Of a DNA stretch of 64,000 bases, positions 6,299 to 41,326 are shown one piece after another (position 1 is the first letter of the stretch; the number at the start of each line of letters is the position of its first letter). The DNA is from Natrarchaeobius oligotrophus (lineage in GTDB: Archaea > Halobacteriota > Halobacteria > Halobacteriales > Natrialbaceae), in NCBI RefSeq assembly GCF_003841465.1, contig NZ_REFZ01000004.1:1-64000 (forward strand), in the 5' to 3' direction. The position numbers were made by a program, and so were the translations under genes. The notes under the pieces were generated by a model that was not told the DNA's origin, made no database searches, and saw nothing but the letters and a program-made list of their open reading frames with translations.

Positions 6299-7588
6299 AT
6301 GAAACACGGAAAATTCGCCGTCGTCCTGCTCGTCGTCGCCATCGTTGCGGCGACCGCTGCGGGACTCGGCTATCTCGCTGTGACGATAGACGCGACGACG
6401 GGCGACGAGAGCGTCGACGAGGCGATCGTGCCGGGCGACGAGACTGTCGAGCCGATCCACGACGCCGGTACGACCGGCGAGAACGTCTCCGTCGGGGTGA
6501 TCGACGTGACCGGGTTCGATCTCGAGCATCGAGCGCTCGAGGACCGGGTCGCCGGCGAGGCTTCGTTCGGCACCGACGCGGCCGCCGTCGATTCGGGCGA
6601 TCGTCACGGGACGTCGGCGGCCGTAACAGTCGCCGGAACCGCACCGGACGCGTCGCTGTACCTCGCCACGTTCGAGACGGCCGACGATTACGCAGCCGCC
6701 GTCGAGTGGTTGCTTGACGAGGACGTCGACGTGATCGTCGCGCCGGTGTCGGACGCCGGAACGCTCGGCGACGGAACCTCCTCGATTGCCGAGGCGACGA
6801 CCGAGGCGACCGAACGCGGTACTGTCGTTGTCGCGCCCGCGGGAAACCTCGGGGACGCTCACTGGCGCGGCGAGTACGATCCCGACGAGAACGGCGTTCA
6901 CATATTCGACGAGGGTCCCCTCAACGACGTGACGGGGCCGCCGGGCCAAGGCGAGTTCCACCTCGCGTGGAACGATCCGGACCGGGACTACCGGCTGGAA
7001 CTCCACCGCGTTCGGGACGACGGGACGACCGAGCTTGTCGCCCAGTCGCTTTCGCGGGAAAACGGGAACGTCTCGAGCGAACGGCTCACCGCGCGGCTCG
7101 CCGACGATCGGTACGCGCTCGTCGTCCGGGGTCCGGAACGCCGGACCGACACCCGGATTCGGGTGGCGTCGTCGACTCACTCGCTGTCGGCGGTGCGGGC
7201 GTCAGGGAGCGTCGTCGACCCCGCCGCAGCGCCCGGAACGATCTCCGTGGGATCGGTCGACGCAACCTCGGACGAGGTCGAACGGTACAGCTCTCGCGGA
7301 CCGACCGCAGACGGTCGACTCGGCGTTCACGTGGTCGCCCCGAGTACTCATTCCGTTCCCGGACACCCGCCGTTCGAAGGAACGTCGGCATCGGCGGCGT
7401 ACGTCGGCGGCGTCGCGGCGCTCGTCGTTGACGCCGATCCCGACCTCAAGCCAGACGAAGTTCGCTGGACCATCGCATCCACGGCCGACCCGGTCGACGG
7501 GGTCGACGCCGGAAGCGGCCACGGTGCAGTCGATCCCGTCGCTGCGGTTTCGGCTGCGTCCGCGGACGCCGAGGACGAGTCGACCTGA
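6299..7588 (+). CDS. Membrane-anchored subtilisin-like serine protease (S8)
   Basis: The 429-residue protein has an N-terminal membrane helix (about residues 7-30) and then a subtilase domain. The triad can be placed at Asp69 (VGVIDVTG), His103 (RHGTSAA) and Ser363 (GTSASAAY), with the oxyanion Asn183 in APAGNLGD. About 90 residues of beta-rich sequence are inserted between the Asn and Ser blocks. The helix has no obvious signal-peptidase site, so it is probably a membrane anchor with the protease outside the cell. The ATG at 6299 is chosen because residues before it in the open frame have no membrane or protease features. Confidence 0.82.
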   Translation: MKHGKFAVVLLVVAIVAATAAGLGYLAVTIDATTGDESVDEAIVPGDETVEPIHDAGTTGENVSVGVIDVTGFDLEHRALEDRVAGEASFGTDAAAVDSGDRHGTSAAVTVAGTAPDASLYLATFETADDYAAAVEWLLDEDVDVIVAPVSDAGTLGDGTSSIAEATTEATERGTVVVAPAGNLGDAHWRGEYDPDENGVHIFDEGPLNDVTGPPGQGEFHLAWNDPDRDYRLELHRVRDDGTTELVAQSLSRENGNVSSERLTARLADDRYALVVRGPERRTDTRIRVASSTHSLSAVRASGSVVDPAAAPGTISVGSVDATSDEVERYSSRGPTADGRLGVHVVAPSTHSVPGHPPFEGTSASAAYVGGVAALVVDADPDLKPDEVRWTIASTADPVDGVDAGSGHGAVDPVAAVSAASADAEDEST

Positions 7589-7681
7589 GCAAGCGCCTCG
7601 GGAATCTATCCCGTCCCGCCGCTCAAATAGTCGTTTAACGTATGGAAACCTATGTGATAGTCGAGGACCGAGCGAGGCGTA

Positions 7682-8296
7682 ATGTCGACGCTTACGGATC
7701 TGTTGCCGGCCGAACCGGCCTCGCCCGACGCGGAACTTCGCGTCGTCGACGTCGGGGACGAGGAAGCGGACGAACTCTTCGACGTGCTCTCGAGCGAGAC
7801 GCGCCGAAACGCGTATCGAAGCCTGTTCGACGAACCGGCGACGGTTTCGGAACTGGCCAACCGACTCGACACCTCGGTTCAGAACGTCTCCCACCACGTC
7901 TCGATGCTCGAGGATGCGACGCTCGTCGAACCCGTCGGACGGCGTTACTCGGAGAAGGGAAACGAGATGGTGGTCTACGGTCCCGCAAGCGATCCCCTCG
8001 TGTTCGTCGGTCGACCGGAAGCCCGACCCCGGCTCGAGCAGTCGCTCTCTGAACTGATCACCGGCATCGGGATCGTCGCCGCCGGTGCGTTGTTCGTCCA
8101 GTGGGGAGTCTACGAACTGTTCGCGACTGACGAGTCGGGAACGGGCGGCATCGATCCGGCCAGTTACGTGGCCGAAAGCGACGGAACCCAAGGCCTGCTC
8201 GTGTGGATCGTCTTCGAGGCCGGGGAACCGGGATTGGTCTTCTTTTTCGTCTGTTTGTTCGTCGCTGCAATCGCCTCGTTCGCACTCCGGCGGTGA
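7682..8296 (+). CDS. ArsR-type winged-helix regulator with two membrane helices
   Basis: The 204-residue protein has an N-terminal HTH, with DVLSSETRRNAYRSLFD and the recognition-helix region TSVQNVSHHVSMLEDA (residues about 30-85). Two C-terminal membrane helices follow (about 120-140 and 180-200). This soluble-HTH plus membrane layout is common in haloarchaea and suggests a membrane-tethered regulator sensing an envelope or extracellular signal. The protease directly upstream on the same strand is a possible partner or target, which is inference from position only. Confidence 0.75.
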   Translation: MSTLTDLLPAEPASPDAELRVVDVGDEEADELFDVLSSETRRNAYRSLFDEPATVSELANRLDTSVQNVSHHVSMLEDATLVEPVGRRYSEKGNEMVVYGPASDPLVFVGRPEARPRLEQSLSELITGIGIVAAGALFVQWGVYELFATDESGTGGIDPASYVAESDGTQGLLVWIVFEAGEPGLVFFFVCLFVAAIASFALRR

Positions 8297-11496: not shown

Positions 11497-12282
11497 TTAT
11501 AGACCGGTTCGAATCCGTTCTTCGGCCGCCTCGAGCGCTCGTTCGCGATCGAACTCCTCGACGATCACCTCGAGTTCCGCCTCGCTGGCGTCCGCCAGAT
11601 TCCGTGCGTGTGCCGTCGTATTCGGCACCGCGCGGACGATGTTGTCGACGATCGGAACGTCGGCCACGCGCGGCGAGCGCGAGAGCGGGTTGAGGTCGAT
11701 CACGATTTCGGTCTTGCCCATCTCCTCTAGGGCTTCGGCGCGGTCGCCGTCCTCGAGCGGGACGAGCACGACGTCGGCGGCGTAGATGCCGTCTTCGTCC
11801 ACTTTCGCGCGCTGGTGATCCAGGTTCGGGATCCGCGCGTCGGCCTCGAGGCCCTTCACCTCGTCTGCACCGTGGCCCCGGAGGTGATCGGCGATGGCCT
11901 CGAGTCGCTCGGGCGTCCGGTTGAAGAGGTTGACCTCGAGGTCGGCGTCGACGACGTCGGCGAGTTCGACCATCTCGGCGGGGACCAGCGCCGCGACGTT
12001 TCCGTTGATCGAGAGCACCGGGTGGTCGGCGAGCAGCAGGTGTGCGGCCGCCGCCCGTTCCGCGGCGTCGGCGCTCGGAATCGTCTCCTCGCCGAGCAGA
12101 TAGTCGAAGGCGCTGCCACGACCCTCGGCGTGCATCCCCTGGAGGTGCGTGATCCCCTTCTCGACGCCCTTCTCGATCCGGTGGCGGGTGAGCAGATCCT
12201 GGTACCGGGGATGGTCCGCCGGAATCTCGTCTTCGTGCTCGACGTCCGCGGAGACCGTCTCGTAGTCGCTCATATCCGCCAC
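11497..12282 (-). CDS. 4-phosphopantoate--beta-alanine ligase (archaeal phosphopantothenate synthetase)
   Basis: The 261-residue enzyme joins 4-phosphopantoate to beta-alanine using ATP, the archaeal route to coenzyme A that replaces bacterial PanC/PanK. The opening HPRYQDLLTRHRIEKG, the HAEGRGSAFDYLLGEET motif, LSINGNVAALVPAEM and the C-terminal PLSRSPRVADVPIVDN are all typical of COG1701. Its partner pantoate kinase is not adjacent here. A second ATG nine bases in (12273) is possible. Confidence 0.9.
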   Translation of the reverse strand: MADMSDYETVSADVEHEDEIPADHPRYQDLLTRHRIEKGVEKGITHLQGMHAEGRGSAFDYLLGEETIPSADAAERAAAAHLLLADHPVLSINGNVAALVPAEMVELADVVDADLEVNLFNRTPERLEAIADHLRGHGADEVKGLEADARIPNLDHQRAKVDEDGIYAADVVLVPLEDGDRAEALEEMGKTEIVIDLNPLSRSPRVADVPIVDNIVRAVPNTTAHARNLADASEAELEVIVEEFDRERALEAAEERIRTGL

Positions 12283-12474: not shown

Positions 12475-15375
12475 TCAGTCGGTGAACGTGATCCAGCCGT
12501 CGGGGGCGTGGGCTTTCACGTCGTTCATCGCCTCGCGAGCGCCGGTTCGCGTCTCGTAGAGCCGGGTGCTCTCGGCCATCGTCGTCCCGTACTCGTCGAC
12601 CAGCTGCCACACCCAGCCGTCCTCGTCCTCGGCGGCGTGGAGCTCGAAGGAGACGCTGTCGATCTCGAGGATGCTCGCCGCCTCGATCAGCTCGCGGACG
12701 TCCTCGAGGGCCTCGCGCGCGGCCGCCGTCGAATCGTACGTCTCCGACCCCGTCGCGACCGCGCGACCGTCCTCGTCGATGAGCCGCCAGTGCCAGCGCT
12801 CGTCCTCGTCGACGACGAGTTCGAACGAGGCGACGTCGAAGTCGACCCTGCCGGCAAGCGGCGCGAGCTGTCGGACGGTTTCGACCGTAGACAGGAGCTC
12901 GTCTTTGTCGTACGCCGTGTCGACCGAGGCACCGATCACCGACCGCTCGCGGTCGACGAGGCTCCACGACCAGCCCGTTCCGTTCTCGAGGCGGACGACC
13001 GCGTCCTCGATGGTGAAAATCGGCGCGTCGGTCGCGTGCCCGGCCATCCCCTCGACGACCGATCGGACCTCGTCGCGCGTCGCGTACGAGACCGCCGAGT
13101 CGGCGATCGGCTCGCGGTCGCGATCGAGCAGCCGGAATCGCCAGTCGTCGGGTCCGTAGAGCTGGACGGTGACGTCACCGATCGTGTACTGCTGTCCGGA
13201 CGTCGCCGCCTCCCGGACGTCGTCGAGTCGCTCGACGAGGTCGTCGCGCGTCGGATGCTCTTCGCCGTCGACGGCGACCGTCTCGCCGTTCGGCAGGACG
13301 AATCGCCAGTGCCAGTCCTCTGCCGCGTAGGTCTGGAAGATCGCCTCGTTCATCGTCCGGACGTTCGACTCGAGGTGCTCGAGCAGGCGGTTCATCGCCG
13401 CCCGTGCAGCCTCGCGGGTCGGGTGGGTCGACGGATCCTCCGCGACCAGTTTGCCGCCCTCGTCGATGAGCCGCCAGCCCCACTCGTCGTCCTCGTTGAC
13501 GAACAGCTCGAAGGCGGCGGTTTCGATCTCGAGCAGTTCGGCGTCTGGGGCCTGTTCTTTCAGCGTCATCATCGCTTCTGCGGCCTCGCCCCGGGAGGTG
13601 TGTTCCTCGCCGCTGTCGGCGAGCACGTTGCCGTCCTCGTCGATGAGCCGCCAGCGCCACTCGCCGGAGTCGGCCTCGTACACCTGGAACGCGGCGTTTT
13701 CGAACTCGATGAGGTCCGCCTCGCTCGCCTGCTCGCGGACGCGTTCGATCGCCTCGGCGGCGGCGTCGGCGTCCGGGTGCGGCTCGTTGCTCGCGGCGAC
13801 GACGTCCCGGTCCTCGGTGACGAGTCGCCAGTTCCAGTCGGGGCCGGCCTCGGCCTCGTCGTCGACCACGACGCCGCCGTCGGCCGTCACCTCGGGATCG
13901 TCGACCGTCGCCGGCAGCTCGTCGGACTCGTCGTAGGTGAACTGCGCTCCGTCGTCGGCCGGATAGACCTCGTACTCGGCGTCGTCGATCTCGACGACGT
14001 CGGCCGTGCGGGCGTGCTCGGCGAACCGTTCGGCCTGACGTTCGGTCCGCCCGAACTCGTCGCTCTCGTCCGGGCTCCGGGCGACCACGCGTTCGGTCCC
14101 GTCGACGAGCCTGAACTGCCACCGATCGCCCACCTGGTAGAGTTCGTAGCCGGGTTCACCAGCGACGGTGATCGACGCCGACTCGAGTCCGGGGAGCAGC
14201 GCCTCGACGGCGGCCTCGGCGTCGCGGCGCGAGTCGAACTCGCCGTCGGCGGTCGCGACGACCTCGTCTTCGTCGTCGACGACGCGCCAGGTCCAGCCGC
14301 CGTCGCGCTCGTACAGTTCGACGCCGACGCGTTCGACGTCGAGTACGCGCGCCCGTTCGAATCGCTCCGCGAACTCCCTGGCAGCTTCCTCGGCTTGCTC
14401 CTGGGTTCTGTGTCCGTCGTCGCTCGAGGCGAGCGGCGTTCGATCGTCGTCGATGAGCTGCCAGTACCACTGGTCGCGCTCTTGCGTGTAGGTGAACGCC
14501 GCGCCGTCGATCTCGATGACGTCGGCGTCGGGCCCGCGGTCTTTCAGGAAGCTCACCGATCCCTCGGCGTCGTCGCGGTGGTCGAACTCCCGCGCGCAGG
14601 TGCCGACGACGCTGCCGTCGTCGCGCGCGAGCGTCCACTGCCAGGTGCCGTCCCGATCCTCGTAGAGCCGGAACGCCGAGGTCGTCAGCTCCATCAATCC
14701 GGCGGAGCTGATCTGGGATTTGACGCGTTCGATCCCCTCCGTCGCTTCGGGGCGGGTCACGGCGCTGTCGGTGGTTCCCGCGAGCGCCTCGAGGTGGAGG
14801 ACGTGCCACTTCCAGTCGCCGTCCTCGTCGCGGAAGACGGCGAACTGCGCGCCCTCGAGGGCGTCGCCGGTGAGGATCGGCGGGTCCTCGGTCTGTCCTT
14901 CCTCCTCGACGAACATCCCCCGCTGACCGGTAACGATCGGGACGAGCGCCGTCACGCCGCCGATGATTCCGATGCCCAACGAGTAGACCGCGATCACTTC
15001 GACGCTCCAGTCGGCGCCGTGACCGCGCCAGTCGTGGGGGTAGACGGCGGCGAAGAAGACGACGCCGGCGAGCGCGATGGCGAGCCCGACGACGCTCGCT
15101 TGAATCCCGCGTCTGCGGACTGGAAGCATCAGTACGAGGCCGAACAGGCACACCGACAGTCCCGCCGCGGCGGTCACGCCCGAGATCCGGATCAGGACGT
15201 ACGATCCGGTGTCGCCGGCGTATCCGACGACGAACGCGAACACGCCCGCGGCCGCGATGAGATACCCGAGGATGAACAGCCAGTAGCCGTAGACGTCTTT
15301 TTTCGAATCCGGTTCGCTGACGTAGTGTTCGTAGAGGCGAAACAGGTTCTGGTGTATTTTCAGTGGAGAGGTCAT
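12475..15375 (-). CDS. Giant membrane protein with 13 tandem DUF1508 (YegP-like) repeats
   Basis: The 966-residue protein has four membrane helices in residues about 28-165, then an acidic C-terminal region made entirely of about 13 repeats of 50-60 residues. Each has the form FxLYEDxDGxWxWRLIDEDGxVVAxSxExYxxRxxAxxAIxxVK, the YegP/DUF1508 fold. Clear copies include FQVYEADSGEWRWRLIDEDG and FELVVDEDERWHWRLIDEDG. The sixth copy is split by a poorly conserved acidic insert of about 35 residues. Single or double DUF1508 proteins are usual; 13 fused to a membrane anchor is not. The repeats probably face the cytoplasm or outside as a scaffold; the function is unknown. Confidence 0.85.
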   Translation of the reverse strand: MTSPLKIHQNLFRLYEHYVSEPDSKKDVYGYWLFILGYLIAAAGVFAFVVGYAGDTGSYVLIRISGVTAAAGLSVCLFGLVLMLPVRRRGIQASVVGLAIALAGVVFFAAVYPHDWRGHGADWSVEVIAVYSLGIGIIGGVTALVPIVTGQRGMFVEEEGQTEDPPILTGDALEGAQFAVFRDEDGDWKWHVLHLEALAGTTDSAVTRPEATEGIERVKSQISSAGLMELTTSAFRLYEDRDGTWQWTLARDDGSVVGTCAREFDHRDDAEGSVSFLKDRGPDADVIEIDGAAFTYTQERDQWYWQLIDDDRTPLASSDDGHRTQEQAEEAAREFAERFERARVLDVERVGVELYERDGGWTWRVVDDEDEVVATADGEFDSRRDAEAAVEALLPGLESASITVAGEPGYELYQVGDRWQFRLVDGTERVVARSPDESDEFGRTERQAERFAEHARTADVVEIDDAEYEVYPADDGAQFTYDESDELPATVDDPEVTADGGVVVDDEAEAGPDWNWRLVTEDRDVVAASNEPHPDADAAAEAIERVREQASEADLIEFENAAFQVYEADSGEWRWRLIDEDGNVLADSGEEHTSRGEAAEAMMTLKEQAPDAELLEIETAAFELFVNEDDEWGWRLIDEGGKLVAEDPSTHPTREAARAAMNRLLEHLESNVRTMNEAIFQTYAAEDWHWRFVLPNGETVAVDGEEHPTRDDLVERLDDVREAATSGQQYTIGDVTVQLYGPDDWRFRLLDRDREPIADSAVSYATRDEVRSVVEGMAGHATDAPIFTIEDAVVRLENGTGWSWSLVDRERSVIGASVDTAYDKDELLSTVETVRQLAPLAGRVDFDVASFELVVDEDERWHWRLIDEDGRAVATGSETYDSTAAAREALEDVRELIEAASILEIDSVSFELHAAEDEDGWVWQLVDEYGTTMAESTRLYETRTGAREAMNDVKAHAPDGWITFTD

Positions 15376-15390
15376 CCCAAACTCAATCGA

Positions 15391-15413
15391 TAACTAGAAC
15401 AATAGTTAATAAA
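15391..15413 (-). promoter_or_regulatory. Promoter of the DUF1508-repeat gene with an inverted repeat over the TATA box
   Basis: TAACTA (15391-15396) and TAGTTA (15403-15408) form a perfect inverted repeat with a 6-nt spacer. It overlaps an AT-rich TTATTAAC-type box about 28-38 nt before the start codon at 15375. The position suggests operator control of a leaderless transcript. No regulator is known. Confidence 0.4.
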
Positions 15414-15767
15414 GATGTCCGATCATCTTATTTGAATTGCATTTCAATGCGTCGTTCAAGCAGATACTGTAACCGACCGAACGCGTCCGAACCACCGTTT
15501 CGACTCGAGCGTTCGGCGGCACCCAGTTCGCGACGACGATCCGAGCGTTCGAGACAACTTGCCGGGTGTCGACTCGAGCCCGTGGCGACGGCTCGAAGGA
15601 ACGCGGGTTGATATACGAGGGCGCGACGAAACGCGGTATGATCGACGCGGCGGCGAGAACCGAAGACGAGCGAGCAGACGAGGTGGCCGAGAGAACGCAC
15701 GGAACGGCCGAGCGAACGCGCGGAATGGACAACGTTTATGCGCGGGCTACGCATGCACGAGCATAGA
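15414..15767. other. Divergent intergenic region, no gene seen
   Basis: This region separates the DUF1508-repeat gene from rpa. Open frames here are short, Arg-rich and without start signals or family features. The right end holds a TTTATG box at about 15735-15740, some 28 nt before the rpa ATG, consistent with a leaderless promoter. Confidence 0.5.
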
Positions 15768-21562: not shown

Positions 21563-21583
21563 ATGTGAACGTACTCGTCGACG

Positions 21584-21642
21584 TTAATAGCAATTACTCT
21601 TCAATAACTGCGCCTGCAGAAGTAGCCAGATTTAATAATATA
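21584..21642. promoter_or_regulatory. Divergent promoter between NikR-like and CobW genes
   Basis: TTTAATAATATA at 21631-21642 is 22-33 nt before the CobW ATG (21664), and TTAATA at 21584-21589 is 22-27 nt before the NikR-like ATG (21562). Both are TATA-box distances for leaderless mRNAs. The imperfect repeat ATAC-AGAG-GTAT (21640-21651) lies just beyond the CobW-side box and is a possible operator half-site. Confidence 0.5.
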
Positions 21643-21663
21643 CAGAGGTATTGTGTTAACAGT

Positions 21664-22869
21664 ATGAGCAACGACCGCATTCCCGTCACCGTCCTGAGCG
21701 GAAGCCTCGGGGCGGGAAAGACGACCGTACTCAACCACGTTCTGACCGCCGACCACGGGCTCGAGGTCGCCGTCGTGGTCAACGACATGGGCGAAGTGAA
21801 CGTCGACGCCGAACACGTCGCCCAGCGATCCGACCTGGGCGGCGACGACGAAATTATCGAACTGTCGAACGGCTGTATCTGCTGTCGGCTGCGAGGGGAC
21901 ATGCTGGACGAGGTCGGTCGGCTGGCGGATCGCCGCGAGTTCGACTACCTGCTGGTCGAATCGTCGGGCATCTCCGAGCCGATTCCGGTCGCACAGACGT
22001 TCGCGATGGGCTTCGAGGACGCGTCGTTCGACCCGACCGACACCTACGCGCTCGATACGATGGTCACGGTCGTCAACGCCCACAGCTTCTTCGAGTCGTT
22101 CGACTCAGGCGCGGCGCTCGTCGAGGACGGACTCGAGGACGACGCCGGTCGCGTGCCCGAGGAGGTGTTGCTCGACCAGATCGAGTTCTGCGACGTCCTC
22201 GTGCTCAACAAGTGCGACCTCGTGCCCGATGACGCGCTTGAGGAGATCGAAGCCGTCCTCGAGACGCTCCAGCCGCGTGCGACGATCGTGCGCACGGAGT
22301 TCGGCGACGTCGACCCCGATCGGATTCTCGGCACGGGCGCGTTCGACTTCCAGGCGGCCCAGAACTCCGCGGGCTGGAAGCACGAACTCCAGCACGAACA
22401 CGCCCACGATCCGCGCGAGGAACACGGCGTCACCTCGTTCGTCTACCAGCGCGACCGACCGTTTCACCCGTATCGAATCGCGTCGTTACTCTCGGAGCTC
22501 CCCGACGAGATCGTGCGCGCCAAGGGCTTTTTTTGGAGCGCGGGTCGGGAGGACGTCGCGATGGGCATCGACAAAGCCGGCACCTCCGTTCGGGCCGGGC
22601 CGTCCGGCCAGTGGCTCGCGACGCTACCCGAGCGCGAGCGAAAGCGGTACTTTGCCGCACGGCCGGGGCTCGAAGACGACTGGGACGACGAGTGGGGCGA
22701 TCGGATGACCCGACTCGTCTTCATCGCCCGTCAGTTCGACGAGACCGAACTGATCGACCGCCTCGACGACTGCCTGCTCACCGACGCGGAGATGGGTGAA
22801 AACTGGGACGCCTACCCCGATCCCTTCGAACCGCAAGAGCGACGTGAACTCGCGCTCGCGAACGAGTAA
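21664..22869 (+). CDS. COG0523/CobW-type metallochaperone GTPase 1
   Basis: The 401-residue protein is a G3E-family GTPase. Walker A GSLGAGKT is at residues 13-20, the metal-binding CICC at 71-74, the Glu of VESSGISEP follows, and NKCD gives guanine specificity. The C-terminal CobW_C domain begins near RPFHPYRI. A modest His cluster (HELQHEHAHD) lies between the domains. Such proteins deliver Zn, Co or Ni to target enzymes. The NikR-like repressor next door and a second paralogue 3 nt downstream suggest a metal-controlled operon. The ATG at 21664 matches the TATA position. Confidence 0.88.
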   Translation: MSNDRIPVTVLSGSLGAGKTTVLNHVLTADHGLEVAVVVNDMGEVNVDAEHVAQRSDLGGDDEIIELSNGCICCRLRGDMLDEVGRLADRREFDYLLVESSGISEPIPVAQTFAMGFEDASFDPTDTYALDTMVTVVNAHSFFESFDSGAALVEDGLEDDAGRVPEEVLLDQIEFCDVLVLNKCDLVPDDALEEIEAVLETLQPRATIVRTEFGDVDPDRILGTGAFDFQAAQNSAGWKHELQHEHAHDPREEHGVTSFVYQRDRPFHPYRIASLLSELPDEIVRAKGFFWSAGREDVAMGIDKAGTSVRAGPSGQWLATLPERERKRYFAARPGLEDDWDDEWGDRMTRLVFIARQFDETELIDRLDDCLLTDAEMGENWDAYPDPFEPQERRELALANE

Positions 22870-22872
22870 CGA

Positions 22873-24279
22873 ATGGCGACTTCGGTAACGATCCTCTGTG
22901 GCGAACTCGGCGCTGGGAAGACGACGCTGCTCTCGGGGCTCCTCGAGTCGGCCGACCGCGACGTCGCGGTCGTCGTCAACGACGTCGGCGCGATCAACGT
23001 CGACGCCGACCTCGTCGAGGCGCGGACGCACCTCGAGACCGGCGACGAGGTCGTCGCCCTCGAGAACGGCTGCATCTGCTGTAGCCTCGGCGGCGAACTC
23101 TCGCGATCGGTCGTCCGCCTCGGGCGCGAGCGCGACTTCGACCACCTCGTGATCGAGGCCTCCGGCGTCGGCGAACCCGAGCCGATCGCCCGCCAGTTCG
23201 TCCGCGGCCCCGCCGCGGGCGCGTACGACCTCGAGGCCGTCGTCACGGTCGTCGACGCGCGCCGATTTCACGACCGGTTCGCCGACGTCGGTTCCGTCGG
23301 CGAGCCCCCCACGATCGAGGGCGCGGACGAGACCGGGACGCGCCCGCTCGCCGATCTCGTCCTGGCGCAGGTCGAGTTCTGCGACCTCCTGGTCGTCAAC
23401 AAGTGCGATCTCGTCGACGTCGACGAACGCGACCGCGTCGTCGCGCTGCTCGAGACGATTCAGCCGCGCGCCGAGATCGTGACGACCGAGTACGGCGCGC
23501 TCGAGTCCGACGACCTGCTCGGCACGCAGCGATTCGATCTCGAGGCCGCGACGGACGCCGCGGGCTGGAAGCGCGCGCTCGAGGACGAGGGCGGCACCGA
23601 CCGTGGTGACGACGGCCACGACGACCACGATCACGCGCACAGCCACGACGACCACGATCACGCGCACAGCCACGACGACCACGATCACGCGCACAGCCAC
23701 GACGACCACGATCACGCGCACAGCCACGACGACCACGATCACGCGCACAGCCACGACGACCACGATCGCGAGCACAACGACCACGGCCACGAGCACAGCC
23801 ACGATCACGCGCACCCACCCGAGCGGTACGGCATCACCGTCGACAGCTACTGCCGCCGCCGGCCGTTTCACCCCGGACGACTCGCCGCGCTTCTCGCCGA
23901 CCTTCCCCCGGAACTCGTGCGTTCGAAGGGGCTGTGCTGGATCGCCGGACGAGAGCGCCAGGCGATCACGATGAGTCACGCCGGAAGGGAAACGAGCCTC
24001 GAGGTGACCGGCCGATGGATCGCCAGCCTTCCCGAACAGCGACGCGAGCGCTACCGACGGGGACAGCCCGACCTCGAGTGGGACGAACAGTGGGGCGACC
24101 GCGAGAGTCGACTGGCGCTGATCGGCCGCGATCTCGACGTCGACGCGCTCGTCGACCGCCTCGACGACTGCCTGCTCACCGACGCGGAGATGGACGCCGA
24201 CTGGTCGACGTTCGAGAACGACGCGCCGACGGCGATGGGCGAATCGATCGTCATTTCCGACGAAGGCGGACCGAGCTAG
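22873..24279 (+). CDS. COG0523/CobW-type metallochaperone GTPase 2, with His-rich repeat
   Basis: This 468-residue paralogue of the preceding gene has Walker A GELGAGKT (10-17), CICC (67-70) and NKCD. Between GTPase and CobW_C domains it carries about 70 residues that are almost entirely His/Asp/Ala/Ser. These include five identical copies of HDDHDHAHS followed by a diverged sixth. The tract should bind many divalent metal ions, as in UreG/HypB His-tails, for storage or sensing. It starts 3 nt after the previous stop, hence the same transcript. Confidence 0.88.
   Translation: MATSVTILCGELGAGKTTLLSGLLESADRDVAVVVNDVGAINVDADLVEARTHLETGDEVVALENGCICCSLGGELSRSVVRLGRERDFDHLVIEASGVGEPEPIARQFVRGPAAGAYDLEAVVTVVDARRFHDRFADVGSVGEPPTIEGADETGTRPLADLVLAQVEFCDLLVVNKCDLVDVDERDRVVALLETIQPRAEIVTTEYGALESDDLLGTQRFDLEAATDAAGWKRALEDEGGTDRGDDGHDDHDHAHSHDDHDHAHSHDDHDHAHSHDDHDHAHSHDDHDHAHSHDDHDREHNDHGHEHSHDHAHPPERYGITVDSYCRRRPFHPGRLAALLADLPPELVRSKGLCWIAGRERQAITMSHAGRETSLEVTGRWIASLPEQRRERYRRGQPDLEWDEQWGDRESRLALIGRDLDVDALVDRLDDCLLTDAEMDADWSTFENDAPTAMGESIVISDEGGPS
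23617..23751 (+). repeat. 27-bp perfect tandem repeat x5 (coding minisatellite)
   Basis: Five identical 27-nt units, each encoding HDDHDHAHS, lie head to tail; a partial sixth diverges after 15 nt. Exact identity at the DNA level, synonymous sites included, indicates recent slippage or unequal exchange, so copy number probably varies between strains. Confidence 0.92.
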
Positions 24280-40170: not shown

Positions 40171-40690
40171 AGCGCCGTCTCGGACCCACCGTTTTCCCGC
40201 TCGGGTCGACTTCGTCGACCACTCGCGGCAACAATCCGTCCGGCGAGAGCTCCGCTCTCGCTGACCGTGCTTCGCTTCGCTCAGCACGAGACCAAAAAAG
40301 CCGCTCGCTCGCGTTACTCGCTCGCGGGACTACTCGTCGGGATACTTCGGTTCGCGCTTTTCCGCCCGCTCGAGCGCCGTCTCGGACCCACCTTTTTCCC
40401 GCTCGGGCCGACTTCGTCGACCACTCGCGGCAAAAATCTGGACCAAAAAAGCCGCTCGCTCGCATCACTCGCTCGCGGGACTACTCGTCGGGATACTTCG
40501 GTTCGCGCTTTTCCGCCCGCTCGAGCGCCGTCTCGGACCCACCTTTTTCCCGCTCGGGCCGACTTCGTCGACCACTCGCGGCAAAAATCTGGACCAAAAA
40601 AGCCGCTCGCTCGCATCACTCGCTCGCGGGACTACTCGTCGGGATACTTCGGTTCGCGCTTTTCCGCCCGCTCGAGCGCCGTCTCGACCA
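40171..40690 (-). repeat. 151-bp tandem repeat built from the 3' end of the MBL hydrolase gene
   Basis: Copies at 40291-40441 and 40442-40592 differ in only three bases (GCGTTAC vs GCATCAC). A third copy starts at 40593 and merges at about 40690 into the authentic end of the MBL gene. A partial, diverged copy sits at 40171-40232. Each full unit holds the last 22 or so codons of the gene (ending KREPKYPDE-stop) plus about 80 nt of downstream sequence. The near identity indicates recent duplication. Confidence 0.92.
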
Positions 40691-41243
40691 CGTCTCGGAC
40701 GTCGCCCTGGAACGTGTCGCCGTGGCCCGCGTACATGTGCTCGATGCCGTCGGGCATGCGTTCGAGCAGCTCCTCGATGCTCTCGATGAGCTGTTCGCGG
40801 GACTGGCCGGGGAAGTCGGTGCGTCCGAAGCTGCCGTAGTCGAACGCGCCGTCGTCGTGGACGACGACGTCCCCCGAAAACAGCGTCCGGTCGGAGACGA
40901 ACGAGACGTGGTCGTCGGCGTGGCCGGGCGTGTACACCACGTCGAACTCCTCGTCGCCGATGGTCACCGTCTCCCCGTCGTCGATCGCGTGGGTGCGCGC
41001 CGGGTGGTGCTCGTAGGCGTAGACCTCCGGATCGAACGCCTCGACGACGGCCTCGAGCTGGTCGACGTGATCGCCGTGCTGGTGAGTCATCACGACGGCG
41101 TCGACGTCGGCGGCGTGCTCGCGTATCTCGTCGACGACGCCCTCCCACGAGCCCGCGTCGACGAGCGTCGTCTCCGCGCCAATTGCCAGAAACGCGTTAC
41201 AGGTGAACGTGTCCGCACTCTCGGTGACGTGGTGGACGTCCAT
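40632..41243 (-). CDS. Metallo-beta-lactamase fold hydrolase (glyoxalase II-like)
   Basis: The 203-residue protein has THQHGDHVD, the PGHADDHVSF His, FSGDVVVHDD and the AGHGDTF His, the complete dinuclear metal set. It is a small thioester or phosphodiester hydrolase of unknown substrate. The ATG at 41243 is near the first strand. Its coding end is the seed of the 151-bp tandem repeat downstream. Confidence 0.85.
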   Translation of the reverse strand: MDVHHVTESADTFTCNAFLAIGAETTLVDAGSWEGVVDEIREHAADVDAVVMTHQHGDHVDQLEAVVEAFDPEVYAYEHHPARTHAIDDGETVTIGDEEFDVVYTPGHADDHVSFVSDRTLFSGDVVVHDDGAFDYGSFGRTDFPGQSREQLIESIEELLERMPDGIEHMYAGHGDTFQGDVRDVVETALERAEKREPKYPDE

Positions 41244-41326
41244 GGTGGTACGCTCACGGGCCGCCCTCAAAACGGTGACGTCCGGACCACGGAATTTTTG
41301 AACCGCTGTCCCGTAGGGACTACCGT

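Follow-up and report, generated by a model that had tools for sequence, protein, structure and literature searches.

The window we analysed, a 64,000-nucleotide stretch of Natrarchaeobius oligotrophus DNA, contains a minus-strand open reading frame which runs from an ATG start at 15375 to 12475 and encodes a 966-residue protein, as the first-pass annotation had stated. The protein begins with a membrane domain of the Pfam family DUF7139 and continues with 13 DUF1508/YegP units, one of which is interrupted by an acidic insert, and the next gene downstream encodes a phosphopantothenate synthetase (PPS). A chance open reading frame is excluded by the conservation of the gene over its full length in about 90 of 125 Natrialbaceae genomes, where the orthologues share 50–82% identity, and further orthologues are found in several other families at 36–47% identity. 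The nearest named relative, Natrarchaeobius chitinivorans, appears to be of the same genus, judging by the orthologue L050/L011. The features of the locus are listed below; units were delimited by their W-x-(W/F) cores, a hidden Markov model (HMM) and the structural model unless other evidence is given in brackets.

15406-15413 (-), TATA box TTTATTAA, conserved in Natrialbaceae orthologues
15391-15408 (no strand), palindrome TAACTA-N6-TAGTTA, TAACTAGAACAATAGTTA, exact in three Natrarchaeobius genomes only
12475-15375 (-), DUF7139-(DUF1508)13 gene, 966 aa (profile matches, conservation and model)
14917-15348 (-), DUF7139 membrane domain, residues 10-153 (Pfam PF23600, E 4.9e-42)
14860-14931 (-), disordered linker from the membrane domain to unit 1, residues 149-172 (pLDDT <50 at 148-172)
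14698-14868 (-), unit 1, residues 170-226
14524-14697 (-), unit 2, residues 227-284
14350-14523 (-), unit 3, residues 285-342
14176-14349 (-), unit 4, residues 343-400
13972-14175 (-), unit 5, about residues 401-468
13714-13971 (-), unit 6, about residues 469-554, with the acidic insert in its first hairpin loop (HMM and model)
13849-13950 (-), acidic disordered insert in unit 6, residues 476-509 (model and orthologue alignment)
13537-13713 (-), unit 7, residues 555-613, the central unit (conservation and unit matching)
13369-13536 (-), unit 8, residues 614-669 (cores, HMM, conservation and model)
13198-13368 (-), unit 9, residues 670-726
13027-13197 (-), unit 10, residues 727-783, with the fewest conserved columns (HMM, conservation and model)
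12850-13026 (-), unit 11, residues 784-842
12670-12849 (-), unit 12, residues 843-902
12478-12669 (-), unit 13, residues 903-966
11497-12282 (-), 4-phosphopantoate--beta-alanine ligase (PPS), the next gene downstream (PF02006, E 8.7e-75; NF041123)

The DUF7139 match covers residues 10–153 with 143.5 bits (the curated cut-off is 30), and both hydropathy and an AlphaFold model place four transmembrane helices at residues 25–53, 59–83, 88–111 and 124–148, which agrees with the four-helix membrane domain predicted earlier. Matches to FtsQ, SPOR and further weak Pfam families were under cut-off and were rejected. The protein as a whole is strongly acidic (210 D/E versus 100 K/R/H), and the mean K/R count reaches 2.73 in the helix 2–3 loop, with 1.95 for the N-terminal stretch and 1.46 for the residues following helix 4, compared with 0.02 and 0.83 in the helix 1–2 and 3–4 loops, both of which are acidic. 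From this charge distribution and the positive-inside rule we infer that the N and C ends, and hence all 13 YegP units, lie in the cytoplasm. Long multi-domain arms with membrane anchors are common on cell surfaces, and on such general grounds the protein could be taken for a surface fibre or adhesin outside the cell. This is very improbable, as no signal peptide is evident by inspection, the charges place the arm inside, and HVO_2922 and other YegP relatives are small proteins that stand alone.

The first-pass annotation had counted about 13 YegP units, and there are indeed 13 W-x-(W/F) cores (at residues 188, 245, 303, 361, 419, 514, 573, 632, 688, 745, 802, 861 and 921) with a core-to-core spacing of 55–60 residues that is wider at unit 6 only; an HMM trained on the units themselves also counts 13. 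Pfam DUF1508 (PF07411) matches ten separate stretches of the protein (E 9.7e-68, 224 bits with a cut-off of 22) and NCBIfam HVO_2922 (NF041908) eleven (E 3.2e-76, 251 bits with a cut-off of 90), and the public label of the protein's relatives is 'DUF1508 domain-containing protein'. Structure prediction had been named beforehand as the test that could refute the YegP assignment, and in the AlphaFold model, which was built on an alignment of 41 orthologues and has a mean pLDDT of 83.5, each of the 13 units takes the YegP fold (beta-beta-beta-alpha-beta), in which three strands are followed by a helix and then by a short strand, with a Foldseek probability of 1.00 to the YegP-type structures 6q2z, 2k49 and 2k8e. 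The pTM of 0.57 resolves the units but not the path of the chain, so that from the 'membrane-tethered rod' described earlier we retain the tether and not the rod. Foldseek provided no credible structural relative of the whole chain in the PDB or among viral proteins, and injection-system and sialidase structures were rejected as such with TM-scores near 0.05.

The insert that was said to split one unit was also found, as about 40 disordered residues inside unit 6 (residues 476–509 in the model). Most Natrialbaceae, and a few others, have an insert of 22–50 residues, but about 15 of the 41 orthologues in the alignment, several Natrialbaceae branches among them, have a normal three-residue turn instead. 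The insert is a dispensable and lineage-specific addition.

The DUF1508/YegP family spans E. coli to archaea and several structures have been solved, but we know of no function for it. The closest solved structure to the array is HVO_2922 from Haloferax volcanii (PDB 6q2z; DUF1508/UPF0339, NF041908), of which 57 residues align to unit 7 with an E of 1e-9 and which has a Foldseek probability of 1.00 to the array's YegP unit, but this is a 60-residue protein with a single unit and is not membrane-bound. The E. coli protein YegP (2k8e) and the UPF0339 protein SO3888 (2k49) share the unit fold, and NMB1088 (3bid; also UPF0339) is a weak sequence match, but all three have about 120 residues at most and are without a membrane domain. 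With 966 residues, 13 units and four helices, the protein studied here is not a small, stand-alone, soluble protein of one to three units, and it belongs to the DUF1508/HVO_2922 family by domain and not by architecture. The first-pass annotation knew of no described role for such an architecture and we found none in the searchable literature; while DUF7139 and DUF1508 are already named public families, we did not find the architecture, the fixed unit number, the genomic site or the kinship with a volactin neighbour (see below) described.

A survey of repeat number across haloarchaea had been proposed earlier, and using the own-unit HMM we found exactly 13 units in 67 of 68 intact orthologous loci, in which some species are counted twice, from several families and down to about 36% identity, with the remaining locus scoring 12. 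The order of the units is also largely retained, as every unit best matches the unit at the same position in L101 (13/13, 51% identity by tblastn) and in the paralogue L113 (13/13, 53%), as do 7–12 of the 13 at 40–45% identity; near 36% identity only 4–5 of the 13 do so and the sequence signal is lost. The core aromatic positions are nearly invariant among the orthologues, and units 7 and 8 are conserved above the remaining units. Unit 7, which is exactly central, is the most conserved, with 33 columns at 90% or above versus 4 to 19 in the other units (the four are those of unit 10). It is also the most canonical unit, and the one that most units of the five-unit relatives described below, as well as many units of the 966-aa protein itself, resemble best.

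The count of 13 and, largely, the order have been kept since early haloarchaea, which speaks for an ordered docking scaffold and not for a loose repeat. A number this constant sets the array apart from neutral tandem arrays and is consistent with position-specific roles, and the combination of a fixed number, unequal conservation and a central canonical unit argues for position-specific contacts; retention of the number and largely the order across haloarchaeal families indicates that each position matters. The departures from 13 units look like decay: in G052 (L188, G052:C1:1380539-1381801) an in-frame deletion has removed units 3–11, leaving units 1, 2, 12 and 13 of an otherwise well-kept orthologue in a 465-codon frame between the genes for pantoate kinase (PoK) and PPS, in G075 (L058) the gene is broken by a frameshift, and in G223 a remnant of about 130 residues with an internal stop lies between PoK and PPS.

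A passive structural spacer, in which length and not surface is selected (for example, to set a fixed distance between membrane and nucleoid), would account for the constant unit number and length and for the weak conservation of most unit surfaces, core aromatics aside. We nevertheless regard this as doubtful because of the very uneven conservation, with units 7 and 8 standing above the rest, and because one genome (G052) keeps a four-unit frame. It is similarly unlikely that the tethered units protect against osmotic or oxidative stress by binding nucleic acid or unfolded protein, although the single-unit HVO_2922 is induced by perchlorate and listed among repair and recombination genes (PMC12175516) and a DUF1508-like segment occurs within an NCBI tryptophan--tRNA ligase model. 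The HVO_2922 data concern the expression of a different, 60-residue protein, strong acidity, though usual in halophiles, is not a property that favours binding to nucleic acid, and a fixed order with one dominant central unit is ill-suited to a simple sponge.

Two other groups of proteins carry arrays of this kind. Proteins with DUF7139 and five DUF1508 units (L117-L128 and L130; 460–594 aa) share both families in the same order and have exactly five units in 13/13 loci from several haloarchaeal families, but their units are all canonical (N-G-N/Q ... G-E-G-Y is kept) and they are found at other loci. The 13-unit paralogues of Natrialbaceae (L113-L116 and L131-L136) have 12–13 units in matching order but have lost DUF7139 or carry in its place one or two other hydrophobic helices; one of these is on the Natrialba magadii plasmid NC_013924 (166677-169286). 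We rejected a plasmid origin, as this paralogue and small or weak matches were all that was found on plasmids, and a viral origin, as a pattern scan of viral contigs gave no relative. We also note an Amphi-Trp domain fused to a single DUF1508 unit on contig C12 of the same genome (L096:4363-4965, plus strand).

The position of the gene amongst those for CoA synthesis is also conserved, with PoK upstream on the same strand in 33 of 40 loci of the 13-unit gene and PPS downstream in 32 of 40, and this order spans the Natrialbaceae to families in which the protein is about 36% identical (it should be noted that the upstream kinase best matches NCBI pantoate kinase models though under their cut-offs). 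Most carriers are therefore collinear with both genes, and the window's genome with PPS alone, which is still downstream whilst PoK is on contig C3 and an RPA-like gene lies upstream. A link to this RPA-like gene (at 15738) was rejected as a local accident, since it is beside the 13-unit gene in 0/24 named-genome loci. PoK and PPS directly adjoin in 12 of 15 non-carrier genomes, which together with the G223 remnant is consistent with an old gene that occupies a fixed site and has repeatedly been lost.

The one-strand PoK–gene–PPS order and the pantoate kinase matches of the upstream gene could indicate that the 13-unit protein regulates or organises CoA biosynthesis by holding or controlling PoK and PPS at the membrane. 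We give this little credence, as the non-carriers with adjoining PoK and PPS argue that the pathway works without the gene and that it is dispensable there, PoK is on another contig in the window's genome, and the five-unit relatives and 13-unit paralogues sit elsewhere; a guest gene may also reside in a housekeeping operon without any functional tie.

DUF7139 is present in 377 of the 392 Halobacteria genomes we sampled, and a tree of 97 DUF7139 domains, in which the deep branching is only moderately supported, contains four groups: the proteins with 13 units, those with five, those that end in DUF7140, and the short ones encoded next to volactin. The DUF7140-bearing clade has support of 100/100 and the volactin-adjacent clade 99/92, and the five-unit and 13-unit groups lie together with 94/76, the sole row labelled as five-unit within the 13-unit group (L129) being a broken 13-unit gene. 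The 13-unit DUF7139 is not sister to the volactin-adjacent clade alone. The DUF7139–DUF7140 proteins (L093:6044-7048 in the same genome), which are widespread in haloarchaea, have the membrane domain in common with the 13-unit protein but continue with a low-complexity linker and a cysteine-rich DUF7140 end. CdpA (HVO_0739), a division protein, may belong to the DUF7139–DUF7140 type. HVO_0739 has been described as a CdrS-dependent membrane protein with an mRNA of about 1,052 nt (PMC8406309).

In 24 of 26 genomes the short DUF7139 gene is directly upstream of volactin and shares its strand. In Haloferax volcanii the actin homologue volactin is important for disk shape (PMC10869688). We found no mention of this gene adjacency in two papers on volactin and salactin; the latter actin is reported to have poor synteny. 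In the genome studied here, contig C18 carries the DUF7139 gene (L094:5852-6751, plus strand) followed by volactin (6852-7877, plus strand). The encoded protein shares the membrane domain with the 13-unit protein (E 8.5e-50) but differs in having a short, partly helical and largely disordered tail without YegP units; a model of it made without an alignment had a mean pLDDT of 61.8 and no significant fold match. Given its position, the short DUF7139 protein is a candidate membrane partner of volactin. Through this association of DUF7139 with volactin, an unknown family would become connected with the shape of archaeal cells in a testable way. The 13-unit gene itself is away from volactin, by PPS on contig C4, and as many volactin-bearing haloarchaea do not have it, it is not core to the volactin system. 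A second volactin-like domain was seen in far longer frames, at G000:C7:78622-79569 and in similar open reading frames of 735–1310 aa in other Natrialbaceae.

Our tentative explanation, which we consider possible though short of probable, is that the 13-unit protein serves in the haloarchaeal cytoplasm as a membrane-anchored scaffold for ordered docking, whose partners are most likely to be found in the envelope–cytoskeleton system. DUF7139 would anchor it in the cytoplasmic membrane, with both of its ends facing inwards, and the 13 YegP units would form one long cytosolic arm in which divergence has made 13 distinct positions, each presumably with a surface of its own and with unit 7 perhaps retaining the ancestral YegP surface. 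Through such an arm several partners could be brought to the membrane, or one polymer at several of its points. The scaffolding, the partners and the cytoskeletal link are the parts of this mechanism that we infer, and partners acting in cell shape or division seem most likely because the DUF7139 relatives include the volactin-adjacent protein. The conserved central unit 7 offers a direct route to finding out what a YegP unit binds. It is also conceivable, but in our judgement improbable, that DUF7139 is a membrane module dedicated to the haloarchaeal cytoskeleton and that the 13-unit protein acts as a molecular ruler or multi-site tether which attaches actin-like or other filaments to the membrane at 13 distinct positions; this would make it an archaeal counterpart of the large membrane–cytoskeleton linkers, made of a domain to which no such role has yet been ascribed.

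Upstream of the gene, the palindrome reported earlier is present and overlaps the TATA box, but the 'tight control' that it was thought to hint at did not hold up. In the other Natrialbaceae orthologues only the TATA element (TTTATTA) and AGTTATC, the right half, are preserved and the left half is absent. Near matches to the palindrome in the genome are no commoner than near matches to the pattern read backwards, which served as a control. We therefore rejected an operator reading, since the palindrome is not kept outside of the genus and its near matches occur at the control frequency. The short distance between the TATA box and the ATG suggests that the transcript may be leaderless or nearly so, and leaderless transcripts are common in haloarchaea.

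Elsewhere in the window there are two adjacent genes assigned by eye to CobW/COG0523-like GTPases (21565-22869 and 22873-24279, both on the plus strand), and in the second of these near-perfect 27-bp repeats encode a His/Asp-rich loop (HDDHDHAHS) that is likely to be metal-binding. A 151-bp tandem repeat of 2.6 copies with 99% matches is located at 40290-40686, where it adjoins the 3' end of a metallo-beta-lactamase-like gene, also assigned by eye (40632-41270, minus strand).
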